In this document: in pieces, positions 23,813-29,269 of the stretch | Position numbering within the stretch: position 1 is the first letter of the stretch | Layout: every line of letters begins with the position of its first letter | Assembly: GCA_009841055.1 (NCBI GenBank) | Contig: VXMN01000332.1 | Location: forward strand, 1-34,073 | Reading direction: 5' to 3' | Length of the DNA: 34,073 nt | Origin: Acidobacteriota bacterium | GTDB taxonomy: Bacteria; Acidobacteriota; Terriglobia; Versatilivoradales; Versatilivoraceae | The notes under the pieces: generated by a model | What the model was told of the DNA's origin: nothing | The model's input: only the letters and a program-made list of their open reading frames with translations | The model's database searches: none | Position numbers and translations under genes: made by a program

Positions 23813-23999
23813 CGGGCGGACCCAGGAAGGAGCGGGGGCGAATCAAAAACCCTCCCGTGAATCCATTTCAGCATCAGCGGAGTGCAGGTCCGCGTTTGCG
23901 GCGTTGGAGATGCCCCCCAGCACATGGTCAGGCAATACATCAGTGATTCAATAATTCTCAGAACAGTGGAAATTCTGCGGGATGGAGACACTAGCCCTA

Positions 24000-24039
24000 T
24001 TGCAAAAATTCACATATACTGCAATTATTCTCGAATAAT
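24000..24039 (+). promoter_or_regulatory. candidate AbiE promoter with overlapping palindrome
   Basis: TTGCAA (24000-24005), a 17-bp spacer and AATTAT (24023-24028) form a plausible promoter. A palindrome ATTATTC-TC-GAATAAT (24024-24039) covers the -10 element. Characterised AbiEi antitoxins repress their own operon through inverted repeats at the promoter, so this is the natural operator candidate. Confidence 0.4.
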
Positions 24040-24070
24040 GGGAATATATGCAGTTGGGATGTACTAAATC

Positions 24071-24877
24071 ATGAGCAAAGAGATCACCATACCCGCGGGG
24101 CGTCGCAGGCTGGCCACGGTGGTTCGGGAAGCTGGCGAAACCATCCGGATCGCAGACGCTGAACGAGCTCTGGACATCAGCCGCACCGCCGCTGCCAAGC
24201 TGCTGTCCCGGTGGAGCGCACAGGGCTGGTTACGGCGTGTCGGTCCTGGTACCTATGCACCCGTCAGCCTGGACTCTCTCTTCAGTGAGCGGGTCCTGGA
24301 CGACCACTGGGTGCTGGTGCCGGCACTGTTCGATCCCGCCTACATCGGCGGCCGCACTGCAGCGGAACACTGGGATCTGACGGAGCAGATCTTCCGAGAC
24401 ATTGTCGTGTTGACGGAGCGGCCAGTGCGTGCCCGACGCCGGGAGCACCATGGCGCAAGCTTCACGCTACGGCATGTCCGGCCGGGCGTGATCTTCGGCA
24501 CCAAAAGTGTCTGGCGCGGCAGAACCAGGATTGCGATTTCGGATGTTCATCGTACCATCGTCGACATGTTGGACGACCCTGAGTTGGGGGCCGGTATTCA
24601 GCATGTCTACGACTGCCTCGCATCCTATTTGGGCCGCAGGGACAGAGACGATGACAGGCTGGTTGCCTATGCCGACCGACTCGGCAACGGCGCCGTGTTC
24701 AAGCGCCTCGGCTTCCTGGCAGAACGCGGATCTGGCGGCACCGCTCTTGTCGACGCTTGCCGGAAGCGTGTGACCCAGGGAAATGCAAAGCTCGACCCCT
24801 CGCTTCCCTGCCGGCGACTGGTAACGCGTTGGCGTCTTTTCGTTCCGGAGAACTGGATTCCCTCGGTACGTCCATGA
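24071..24877 (+). CDS. abiEi: AbiEi-family antitoxin/repressor
   Basis: The 268-residue protein has an N-terminal winged helix-turn-helix (about residues 14-60; IADAERALDISRTAAAKLLS, then WLRRVGPGTYAPV). The central and C-terminal part is typical of AbiEi antitoxins (TAAEHWDLTEQIFRDIVV, FGTKSVWRGRTRIAISDVHR). In the type IV AbiE toxin-antitoxin system AbiEi neutralises the toxin's effect and represses the operon. Its stop overlaps the start of the toxin gene (ATGA), so the two are translationally coupled. The ribosome binding site is weak and the upstream region AT-rich relative to neighbours, which fits acquisition by transfer. Confidence 0.85.
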   Translation: MSKEITIPAGRRRLATVVREAGETIRIADAERALDISRTAAAKLLSRWSAQGWLRRVGPGTYAPVSLDSLFSERVLDDHWVLVPALFDPAYIGGRTAAEHWDLTEQIFRDIVVLTERPVRARRREHHGASFTLRHVRPGVIFGTKSVWRGRTRIAISDVHRTIVDMLDDPELGAGIQHVYDCLASYLGRRDRDDDRLVAYADRLGNGAVFKRLGFLAERGSGGTALVDACRKRVTQGNAKLDPSLPCRRLVTRWRLFVPENWIPSVRP

Positions 24878-26091
24878 TCGACCGCCGCGAAATCCTCGAC
24901 ATTGCGGGGACCCTTGGGCTGCTGCCCCAGGTCGTCGAAAAAGACTATGTGCTGGGTTGGATCCTCGCTGGGATCTACCAGCAGACGGCCCTCGCAGAGA
25001 GTTGGATATTCAAGGGTGGGACCTGCCTCAAGAAATGCTATTTCGAGACCTACCGTTTCTCCGAAGACCTCGACTTTACGCTCACCGATCCTTCTCACAT
25101 CGACCGAGACTTCCTGGCCAGCGTGTTCCGTGGCATAGGAGAATGGATCTACGAGAAGACCGGCATCGAGCTTCCCGAAGCGATGCAGGATTTCGACTTT
25201 TTTGAAAATCCGCGCGGCTCAGTTTCCGGTCAGGGCAAGCTGAGCTACAGAGGTCCGATCGCTCCGCGCTCTGGCGGGCTCCCGCGAATCAAGCTCGATC
25301 TGACGCCCGACGAGCTTCTCGTTCTGCCATCGGCTAAGCGCACCATCTTTCACGACTACAGCGATGCACCGACAGAGGAGATCACCGTCCTCTGCTACAC
25401 CTACGAGGAAGCGTTTGCTGAAAAGGTCCGCGCACTCGGCGACCGGGCGCGACCTCGCGATCTCTACGATGTGATCAATCTCTACCGCAATGCGGAAGCG
25501 CGACCCAGGTCCACCGTCCTGCTCGATGTCCTGGAGCAGAAATGCGCCCATCGCGGGCGTTCCGTTCCGACGCTCGGAGGACTGGAGATACACAGAGGCA
25601 ATCTCGAGGGTTCCTGCCGACCGATGCTGGACCACCAGCTTCAGGCGTTGCCGCCAATCGAATCCTTCTGGGGCGCACTTCCCGAATTCTTTGACTGGCT
25701 GCAAACCGGCGTGACACCTGCTGCGCCAGCCAGGTACCGGATGGCCGCAGGCGAAACCGTACTCCGGGAGCGCACGTTGCGTCTGCCGGTCTCCGGCAGA
25801 AACCGGTCCTATCTGGAAATCATCCGCTTTGCGGCTGCAAACCACTTGTGCGTAGACCTCCAATATCAGGGATCTGCCCGGCGCATCGAGCCCTACTCAC
25901 TGCGACGCACCCGTGACGACAATATCGTTCTGCACGCCACCAGAACCACCGATGGCGAGCATCGGAGCTACCGAATCGATCGCATCCAAGGTGCTCGAGC
26001 GACTGGTCAGAGCTTCATTCCTCGGTTCGCCGTGGAACTAAGCCCCCAGGGCCCGCCTGTCATTCCGCCAACTACAAACCAGGAAAAATAG
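24874..26091 (+). CDS. abiEii: AbiEii-family nucleotidyltransferase toxin with C-terminal WYL-like domain
   Basis: The ATG at 24874 overlaps the antitoxin stop and gives 405 residues; longer frames run inside the antitoxin gene. The nucleotidyltransferase part (about 1-260) shows EKDYVLGWIL (22-31), KGGT (47-50), RFSEDLDFTL (61-70, the DxD metal site), IKLDL (139-143) and EKVRALGDRARPRDLYD (183-199), matching the AbiEii motifs. Residues about 313-387 are extra and resemble a WYL domain: VDLQYQG, RIEPYSLRRTRDDNIVLHA, RSYRIDRIQGA, FIPRF. AbiEii toxins transfer nucleotides to RNA targets such as tRNA acceptor ends in studied members. The WYL part could sense a nucleotide ligand or nucleic acid; this is inference. 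Confidence 0.85.
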   Translation: MIDRREILDIAGTLGLLPQVVEKDYVLGWILAGIYQQTALAESWIFKGGTCLKKCYFETYRFSEDLDFTLTDPSHIDRDFLASVFRGIGEWIYEKTGIELPEAMQDFDFFENPRGSVSGQGKLSYRGPIAPRSGGLPRIKLDLTPDELLVLPSAKRTIFHDYSDAPTEEITVLCYTYEEAFAEKVRALGDRARPRDLYDVINLYRNAEARPRSTVLLDVLEQKCAHRGRSVPTLGGLEIHRGNLEGSCRPMLDHQLQALPPIESFWGALPEFFDWLQTGVTPAAPARYRMAAGETVLRERTLRLPVSGRNRSYLEIIRFAAANHLCVDLQYQGSARRIEPYSLRRTRDDNIVLHATRTTDGEHRSYRIDRIQGARATGQSFIPRFAVELSPQGPPVIPPTTNQEK

Positions 26092-26223: not shown

Positions 26224-26386
26224 GACGGGCCGTGGCCCGCGGGGATCGAGGAGCACGCCAAATTCTCCGGGGTTGGAACAGCGCCCCCAGCAAGCACCTG
26301 TTCGCCTGGGGCCGGTCAGTTTCGTTTCGGCCGAGCCTGTGGACATCCAGACGCCCGGGTCAAGCCATTGGAAGTTGGAGGAAGCG

Positions 26387-29269
26387 ATGAAATCACCAAA
26401 GCCTTTCCGTTTACGCAGCCGACTCGGCTCTGCCTGGTGGATGCTGGCTGGGGTTCTGATTGCAGTTCCCTGGTCGCTTTACTCTTCGGAGCCGCCTTCG
26501 GCGCTGGTGTGGCGGGAACACACCTTTGAGGATTTCGCCGACGGCCGACTGGGCGACGGCGGGGCCAACACCTACGTCTCGGCTCAAGGCCGGGTCCAAC
26601 TGGTGAACAGCTGGGATCTGAACCAGGACGGCTACCTGGACCTGGTGTTTTCCAATACCCATCCCCACCGGGAGGCGCTGGATGCGGCCATCTACTGGGG
26701 TAACGGCAAGGACTTCGACGGTTCGCGCCGCTCCTTCGTCCCCAACGACGGCGCCCAAAATGCCGCTGCCGCCGACCTGGACGGGGACGGTCAGATGGAC
26801 CTGGTCCTGGCCAACTACACCAACGGGACCTGGGACGGCATGGATTCGTACGTCTATTACGGCGGCATCCAGGAGCTCAAGGCGCGCAAGGACGCGTCTC
26901 AATGGGGTTTTCATCCCTTTGCCCGCAAGGTGACGCTGCCCAGCCGGGCCGCCCAGCACGCGGCTGTCGAGGATCTCAACAAGGACGGCTTCCCCGACAT
27001 CGTTTTCGCTTTTTCGGCCGGTTTCTGGGAGTATCGGGCCGCCACCGGAGGGTATGAATCGCCCTCCAGAATCTACTGGGGCTCGGCCAACGGCTACAGC
27101 GGCGACCACCAGACCGACATCCCGGCCCTGGGCGCCTCCTCGGTCGTTATCGGGGACCTGAATCAGGACAGTTGGCCCGACATCGTGCTGGCCAACCAGG
27201 GCCGAGACGGCAATCCCGACGTGGACTCCTACATTTACTGGGGCGGGGCCGAGGGGTTCGACGCCGCTCGCCGGACCAGCCTGCCCACCCACCAGGCCAA
27301 CTGGGTGACTCTGGGGGACGTGAACAACGACGGGCGTACGGACATCGTCTTTGCCAATGGCAAGGGCACGGCTTCCTATGCCTACCTCAATAGCTCCAAG
27401 GGCTTCGAGCCCGACCGGCGGCTGGATCTGGCCACCAGCAATGCCAAGGCCTGCGCCGTGGCCGATCTGAACCGGGACGGCCGCAACGACGTCTTCTTTA
27501 CCAACCACCACACCAGCAACAATCGTCTGACCCATTCCTACCTCTATTGGGGAGGGGATAAGGGTTTCAACGACGAGGACCGGCAGGAATTCGAGACGGT
27601 GGGAGCCTGGGGCGTTTCCGTGGCCGACCTGAACCACGACCAATTTCCCGAGATCATCGTCTCCAACTACAAGGAGCACTTTTCCTTCGACGTGCCCTCG
27701 GTCATTCTCTGGAACTCGGAGGGCACCTTCTCCGATGTTCGCCGCACCTCCCTCTTCACTCAGGGCGCGGTCGGCAACCTGGTCTCGGACTTCAACAAGG
27801 ACGGCCATCCCGACCTGCTGTTCATGAACACCGTGTCCCGCTCCCGCGGCGGAGTGGTCCCCACCTACATCTACTGGGGCAACCGAGAGGGCCGGTATAC
27901 GCCCGAAGACCGCCTTTCCCTCCCCTCGGTCGACCCCTACGAGTGGGCCGCCGCCGACCTGAACGACGACGGCTGGGTCGACTTCCTAGTCTCCAACTTC
28001 GGGGAAACCGTGCGCTGGCGCCAGGAAAGCTATATCTACTGGGGAAGCTCCGAGGGCTTTTCGGTCGACAGCCGCTCGGCCCTCATGGGCGTGGGCAGCG
28101 CCGGGGCCTCCATCGCGGATCTGGACCAGGACGGTCACCTGGACGTCATCCTCAGCAACTCCCCCCGGCCGGAAGACGGAATCAAGGGAGCTTTCATCTA
28201 TTGGGGCAATCCGGAGGGGTTCGTGGTGACCCAGCGAAGCGAAGTTCCCGGCGGAGGCACCTCCACCGTCGCCGATCTCAACCGGGACGGAAAGCCCGAC
28301 CTGGTCTTCGGGGGCAGCGAGGGGGTGGGAGTCTTCTGGAACGACGGCAGTCGTGAGTTCTCCGAGGACCGCAAGACCCTGATCCCCGACAGCAAGGGAA
28401 TGCACGGATCCGAGGTGGCGGACGTCAACCGGGACTCCTATCTGGACGTGATCCTGACTCGGGGCGGTTCGCTGGGGAAACGCCAGACCACCGGCTTCGT
28501 CTATTGGGGGAATCCCAGCGGGGAATACAAGAGCGAGGGAAGGCTCGAGTTCGCCACCGAGGGACTCATCACCCTGACGGTAGGCGACGTGAACCAGGAC
28601 GGCTGGCTGGATTTCATCTGCCCCAGCTACAACACCGGCTCCAGCCGGGCCACCATGACCAGGATCTACCTGGGGGGACCGGACGGCATCAGCTCCGACC
28701 GGATGTTCGAGCTACCAAGCAATGCCGGAACCGGCAGCATGGTGGCCGACTTCAACCGCGACGGCTACGCCGATATCCTGATCATCTGCCACCGGTCCGA
28801 GGGCGATCCGAACCGGATCGGATCCTTCGGCGACCACGTCACCGACTCCTATCTCTACTGGGGCAGTCCGGAGGGATTCCGAGCCGATCATCGCCTGGAG
28901 ATCCCCGTGCGCGGCCCCCACTTCGATTCGGTGGTGGATCTCGGCAACATCTATGATCGACGCCACGAGTTCACCTATGTCTCTTCGGCCTTCAACTATG
29001 GCGACCGGCAGCCTGCCGACCTTGCCTGGCGGGGACAGACGCCCCATGGAAGCAGCCTCCGCTTTCAGATTCGCACCGCGGAGGACGAGCAAGGCCTGGA
29101 AAAGGCCCGCTGGGAAGGCCCTGCCGGCCCCGGGTCCCACTTCGAGCACTCCAGCTCCCTGGCGGATCGTCCCGCCGGCCATGGCTGGATTCAGTACCGA
29201 GCCTTCCTGAATACTCCGCACGGCGCGGTCTCGCCCATCCTGGAGGAGGTTGCCCTCACCTTCCGCTAG
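26387..29269 (+). CDS. secreted FG-GAP/VCBS beta-propeller protein, 14 repeats
   Basis: The start at the ATG at 26387 is supported by TTGGAGGAAGCG directly upstream and gives 960 residues. A signal or anchor segment lies at about residues 15-35 (WWMLAGVLIAVPWSLY). There are 14 clear repeats built around a calcium-binding-type loop, such as DLNQDGYLDLVFSN, DLDGDGQMDLVLAN and DFNKDGHPDLLFMN, most followed by a YIYWG strand; a degenerate fifteenth blade follows. The last 85 residues form a separate beta-sandwich (WRGQTPHGSSLRFQIR ... WIQYRAFLNT). FG-GAP repeats form seven-bladed propellers, so two propellers in tandem are likely. A surface or extracellular binding role is inferred; no enzyme domain is seen. 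Confidence 0.9.
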   Translation: MKSPKPFRLRSRLGSAWWMLAGVLIAVPWSLYSSEPPSALVWREHTFEDFADGRLGDGGANTYVSAQGRVQLVNSWDLNQDGYLDLVFSNTHPHREALDAAIYWGNGKDFDGSRRSFVPNDGAQNAAAADLDGDGQMDLVLANYTNGTWDGMDSYVYYGGIQELKARKDASQWGFHPFARKVTLPSRAAQHAAVEDLNKDGFPDIVFAFSAGFWEYRAATGGYESPSRIYWGSANGYSGDHQTDIPALGASSVVIGDLNQDSWPDIVLANQGRDGNPDVDSYIYWGGAEGFDAARRTSLPTHQANWVTLGDVNNDGRTDIVFANGKGTASYAYLNSSKGFEPDRRLDLATSNAKACAVADLNRDGRNDVFFTNHHTSNNRLTHSYLYWGGDKGFNDEDRQEFETVGAWGVSVADLNHDQFPEIIVSNYKEHFSFDVPSVILWNSEGTFSDVRRTSLFTQGAVGNLVSDFNKDGHPDLLFMNTVSRSRGGVVPTYIYWGNREGRYTPEDRLSLPSVDPYEWAAADLNDDGWVDFLVSNFGETVRWRQESYIYWGSSEGFSVDSRSALMGVGSAGASIADLDQDGHLDVILSNSPRPEDGIKGAFIYWGNPEGFVVTQRSEVPGGGTSTVADLNRDGKPDLVFGGSEGVGVFWNDGSREFSEDRKTLIPDSKGMHGSEVADVNRDSYLDVILTRGGSLGKRQTTGFVYWGNPSGEYKSEGRLEFATEGLITLTVGDVNQDGWLDFICPSYNTGSSRATMTRIYLGGPDGISSDRMFELPSNAGTGSMVADFNRDGYADILIICHRSEGDPNRIGSFGDHVTDSYLYWGSPEGFRADHRLEIPVRGPHFDSVVDLGNIYDRRHEFTYVSSAFNYGDRQPADLAWRGQTPHGSSLRFQIRTAEDEQGLEKARWEGPAGPGSHFEHSSSLADRPAGHGWIQYRAFLNTPHGAVSPILEEVALTFR

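Follow-up and report, generated by a model that had tools for sequence, protein, structure and literature searches.

The PF08843 family, formerly named DUF1814, includes the toxins MenT3/TglT and MenT4 of Mycobacterium tuberculosis. MenT toxins modify tRNA 3′ ends by adding nucleotides (PMC10435456, PMC11541572), and MenT3 is silenced by MenA3 through auto-phosphorylation at its catalytic Ser78 (PMC11375011). The AbiE system has been described as the fourth most abundant prokaryotic phage defence system (PMC11375011). Enzyme-coupled WYL domains bind single strands, ssDNA in the case of PIF1 and ssRNA in that of WYL1 of Cas13d (summarised in PMC9122601). Makarova et al. (2014) reported the combination of WYL with DUF1814, an "AbiGII-like nucleotidyltransferase," and suggested that WYL regulates such abortive-infection systems via bound nucleotides or nucleic-acid fragments (PMC4012209).

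We analysed a 34,073-nucleotide stretch of an Acidobacteriota genome (contig VXMN01000332.1; hereafter the window) that contains the same two domains in one toxin, for which a sequence-only reading had raised the same ligand-sensing idea. The fusion had thus been published before, as had the gating idea, and the architecture is not new, although the passage of Makarova et al. that deals with the fusion is a single line mentioning neither AbiEi pairing nor a zinc finger nor conservation. Further, both window proteins match AbiE models of PADLOC-DB (PDLC02317 and PDLC02271) nearly end to end; since PDLC02317 covers residues 1 to 397 of the toxin, the full architecture is already present in a defence-gene library. 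What we add here is a zinc finger and a charge split between an acidic catalytic part and a basic arm. The features of the gene pair are as follows.

24071 to 24877, forward strand: abiEi antitoxin gene, 268 aa, with a winged-helix N terminus (AbiEi_4) and an AbiEi C-terminal domain
24874 to 26091, forward strand: abiEii-WYL toxin gene, 405 aa, PADLOC AbiEii PDLC02317
24961 to 25671, forward strand: AbiEii/MenT-type nucleotidyltransferase domain, aa 30 to 266, with GGT...RFSEDLDF, LDLT, and EK.RAL..R.RPRDLYD
25672 to 25794, forward strand: poorly conserved linker, aa 267 to 307, with low top-residue frequency
25795 to 26013, forward strand: WYL domain, aa 308 to 380 in the structural model; the Pfam match spans aa 313 to 375 (25810 to 25998)
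26050 to 26088, forward strand: short disordered end, aa 393 to 405, the site where most relatives go on to a linker and a zinc finger

The toxin reading frame is intact, and its start shares an ATGA overlap with the abiEi stop, placing the antitoxin gene immediately upstream in one operon, as in AbiE. The upstream product scores 35.3 bits against AbiEi_4 (Pfam cut-off, 25) and 415 bits over the full length of PDLC02271. The toxin scores 627 bits against PDLC02317 (aa 1 to 397 of 405), a model of 396 positions that ends ahead of the zinc finger; it has no family in an NCBIfam search. The genes examined beside the pair, one for a 2-hydroxyacid dehydrogenase and the other for a protein with FG-GAP repeats, are not defence genes. 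The downstream gene (26252 to 29269) has a product of about 1,000 aa with 12 FG-GAP repeat matches. The same genome holds a second AbiEii-family gene (G000:C203:2761-3627), which both the WYL and the PDLC02317 searches missed.

The nucleotidyltransferase motifs, which the sequence-only reading had called complete, are indeed intact. PF08843 matches residues 30 to 266 with 126.5 bits (cut-off, 22.5; E = 2e-36), and motifs I to III are invariant in 71 relatives. Alignment to MenT4 brings GGT and RFSxDLDF into register, with RDLYD lining up weakly, and in Foldseek the N-terminal part hits MenT3/TglT structures (among them 6j7q and 6y5u; E = 2e-8 to 6e-7). The catalytic-loop serine Ser63, within RFSEDLDF, is invariant among the relatives fetched and would be, judged by motif, the counterpart of the MenT3 serine inactivated under its antitoxin. 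MenT3/TglT and MenT4 resemble the window toxin in nucleotidyltransferase fold, motifs, and AbiEi-type antitoxins but, unlike the window family, have neither a WYL domain nor a zinc finger.

Residues 313 to 375 match the WYL profile PF13280 with 24.9 bits (gathering cut-off, 21.8; E = 2e-5), and a WYL model search of the whole metagenome-assembled genome (MAG) returns the window match as the sole one at E ≤ 0.001 (28.7 bits). Relatives score higher in Pfam, for example 34.9 and 35.9 bits. Alignment of the family WYL part to 30 ordinary WYL proteins with hhalign gives a probability of 97% and a score of 55.4, against at most 14.7 for 50 column-shuffled versions. AlphaFold2 models the protein with a mean pLDDT of 87 and a pTM of 0.86, and folds residues 308 to 380 into a helix and a small five-strand barrel (pLDDT about 92 to 95). 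Foldseek matches the C-terminal part to BrxR (2.0 Å over about 75 columns), DriD, CapW, and PafBC, so that a profile match above the curated cut-off coincides with an Sm-like barrel; querying the PDB by sequence with just the WYL part returned weak unrelated matches and no WYL structures. The eponymous tryptophan and tyrosine are absent from the window domain, and R...P..L and RxxR.DRI are kept.

Because the Pfam, hhalign, model, and Foldseek results agree, we consider the fusion and the WYL name correct. This confirms the central claim of the sequence-only reading, which had asked for a PF13280 search of the C-terminal part and a structure prediction of the full protein; the former exceeds the gathering cut-off, and the latter shows a WYL barrel with no sign of the ordinary helical AbiEii C terminus. 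BrxR, CapW, DriD, and PafBC share the barrel fold and basic positions with the window toxin but are HTH-WYL transcription factors, whereas the window WYL domain is joined to an enzyme and has no HTH or WCX domain. An HTH-WYL(-WCX) regulator was considered and rejected, as the toxin lacks an N-terminal winged HTH: Pfam finds none in it, and its N-terminal part is AbiEii.

The same architecture, whose presence in other genomes had been left to be looked for, occurs in at least 80 relatives across many phyla. In a species-level scan (one genome each), the best 80 of 236 relatives are 50 to 90% identical to the window protein, and their hosts include Acidobacteriota, Pseudomonadota, Nitrospirota, Planctomycetota, Bacteroidota, and others; an AbiEi match lies directly upstream in all 80. 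Close full-length relatives lie on four plasmid records, and phage records yielded no full-length relative. Within the window's phylum, near-whole PDLC02317 matches occur in 6 of 297 genomes and AbiEii in general in 51 of 119. The neighbours of the relatives are mixed and include a few type I methyltransferases and integrases, from which we claim no enrichment. Two of the toxins (L025 and L070) are identical over their first 392 aa and come from MAGs labelled Thermoanaerobaculia and Alphaproteobacteria, which reflects either recent transfer or MAG contamination.

The WYL domain is conserved as strongly as the catalytic domain. In the family alignment, 46% of WYL positions, 39% of nucleotidyltransferase positions, and 9% of linker positions reach at least 90% identity, and the mean top-residue frequency falls to 0.43 across residues 267 to 312, versus 0.70 to 0.73 in the flanking domains. 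The WYL part retains six conserved arginines (Arg318, Arg336, Arg344, Arg364, Arg367, and Arg370); in the hhalign alignment, Arg336, Arg364, Arg367, and Arg370 coincide with basic positions of ordinary WYL domains. The first 280 residues carry a median net charge of -12 in 79 family members versus 0 in 17 WYL-less AbiEii proteins of the same phylum, a comparison to be read with the crudeness of net charge, the small WYL-less sample, and its rule-chosen starts in mind. The arm is basic: +4 in the WYL part (+7 in the window), +5 in the linker, and +7 in the finger.

This finger belongs to a tail of about 70 residues past the WYL domain, present in 64 of 79 family members, that combines a linker, basic and disordered, with a C-x2-C-x15-H-x7-C finger (for example, L009:7306-7431 and L005:7300-7458). 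In the model of L009, the finger has a pLDDT of about 95 and the linker falls below 50. Pfam zinc-finger matches are weak, with one above its cut-off (zf-BED in L077), and we found no description of a zinc finger in AbiEii-WYL toxins in the literature examined. The window protein lacks this tail, as does its sister L003, and a six-frame search downstream of the window gene returned no finger at the right place among the matches listed. Finger remnants lie behind a stop codon or frameshift in L002, L036, L046, and L047; some of these cases may reflect errors in assembly. On a tree that leaves out the tail, 14 changes, most of them single-tip absences, are needed to explain where the finger occurs.

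A distant branch (L122, L124, and L126), 25 to 30% identical to the window protein, shares the WYL-like region, and two of its three members have the finger; the WYL-plus-finger part is 32 to 37% identical between the branches. These observations suggest that the three-part form of nucleotidyltransferase, WYL, and zinc finger is probably old. The distant members do not keep the arginines of RxxR.DRI and have no upstream AbiEi gene, nor room for one. They are rare, since two samples of about 290 genomes each contributed a single relative apiece, either partial or broken. One member (L122:2529-5239) sits on a Streptomyces plasmid, where a SMODS (CD-NTase) gene lies 348 bases upstream of it; SMODS was not seen among the annotated neighbours of the other two members.

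In AbiE systems, AbiEi binds inverted repeats of its own promoter, and two candidate operators lie upstream of the window's abiEi.

24013 to 24050, no strand assigned: imperfect inverted repeat, candidate AbiEi operator, with core TTCTCGAATAATGGGAA (24028 to 24044)
23954 to 23978, no strand assigned: possible weaker second operator copy, ATTCTCAGAACAGTGGAAATTCTGC, with 16 of 25 bases equal to 24027 to 24051, by eye

The arms of the first are 18 nt long and 83% complementary. A core of the type TTCyC-N7-GGGAA, with the same 7-base spacing, recurs upstream of abiEi at 10 of 76 loci (mean of shuffles, 0.18), a test that is not fully independent since the window and a handful of relatives supplied the pattern. 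A sigma-70 scan of the region upstream of abiEi returned nothing.

The pair is an AbiE toxin-antitoxin system; taken with what homologues do, its toxin would be a nucleotidyltransferase of the tRNA type to which a nucleic-acid-binding arm has been added. The toxin would add nucleotides to tRNA 3′ ends, and AbiEi would repress the operon and silence the toxin, probably via Ser63. We propose that the catalytic domain, which is acidic, depends on the basic WYL domain, together with the linker and finger if present, to hold nucleic acid, with the tRNA substrate as the likeliest candidate, and that WYL may set target choice or affinity; we put the probability of such an arm at roughly 0.47. The charge split and the binding of ssDNA and ssRNA by enzyme-coupled WYL domains lead us to favour it over a sensor of infection ligands or an AbiEi-docking module. 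The window copy would then function with WYL alone, its zinc finger having been lost. Counting against a single version of this arm, the RxxR.DRI arginines are not kept in the distant branch, so that the members cannot all share a binding mode; the conserved groove is also compatible with a bound small ligand.

Such a ligand leads to the next reading, possible but rather doubtful, in which WYL senses a nucleotide or nucleic-acid fragment that phage infection generates and, as a layer added to control by AbiEi, frees or switches on the nucleotidyltransferase. DriD and CapW have been solved bound to ssDNA (per structure entry titles), gating is what the passage in PMC4012209 proposes for this fusion, and the basic groove positions are conserved. 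The SMODS gene beside the Streptomyces relative would fit as well, but it is a single case with a 348-base gap, and its two branch mates show no such gene among their annotated neighbours; the window's examined neighbours are not defence genes, and those of the relatives are mixed. The stronger form of this idea in the sequence-only reading, a sensor acting instead of AbiEi alone, is weakened: AbiEi lies upstream in every one of the 80 relatives, Ser63 is invariant, and the operator-like palindrome recurs. Because the AbiEi gene and the catalytic serine are found in every relative fetched, AbiEi control is probably kept in the window pair rather than replaced.

The constancy of this partner could also mean that WYL serves mainly to dock AbiEi or to build toxin oligomers, with no need of a ligand. 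One AbiEi subfamily accompanies the toxin throughout the relatives fetched (the best 80 of 236), and the WYL passage of PMC4012209 suggests toroidal assemblies for these domains. The distant branch, however, has the WYL-like region with no upstream room for an AbiEi gene, and the conserved arginines would be more typical of anion binding, which makes docking or assembly an improbable main role. That the C terminus is an ordinary AbiEii end resembling WYL by chance, as the mere 3 bits over the Pfam cut-off and the missing tryptophan and tyrosine might suggest, is ruled out for practical purposes by the shuffled-column controls, the fold matches, and the stronger Pfam scores of relatives.

Returning to the nucleic-acid-holding arm, a more ambitious version would place the toxin under two locks. 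AbiEi would silence the catalytic site, and the WYL-plus-zinc-finger arm would recognise a nucleic acid, whether one particular tRNA, a tRNA that is damaged, or nucleic acid from a phage, and decide when and on what the nucleotidyltransferase acts. The domain order nucleotidyltransferase, WYL, zinc finger would then mark an unrecognised ancient branch of AbiE. We regard this combination as unlikely in full.

The accessory domain of the AbiEii-WYL branch is built in, deeply conserved, and open to deletion or mutation at defined groove residues, and the conserved zinc finger provides a second experimental handle. Cultured hosts of the branch include Mesorhizobium albiziae (L009) and Rhizobium sullae (L123). 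The branch thereby bears on how AbiE toxins pick their targets or get switched on.
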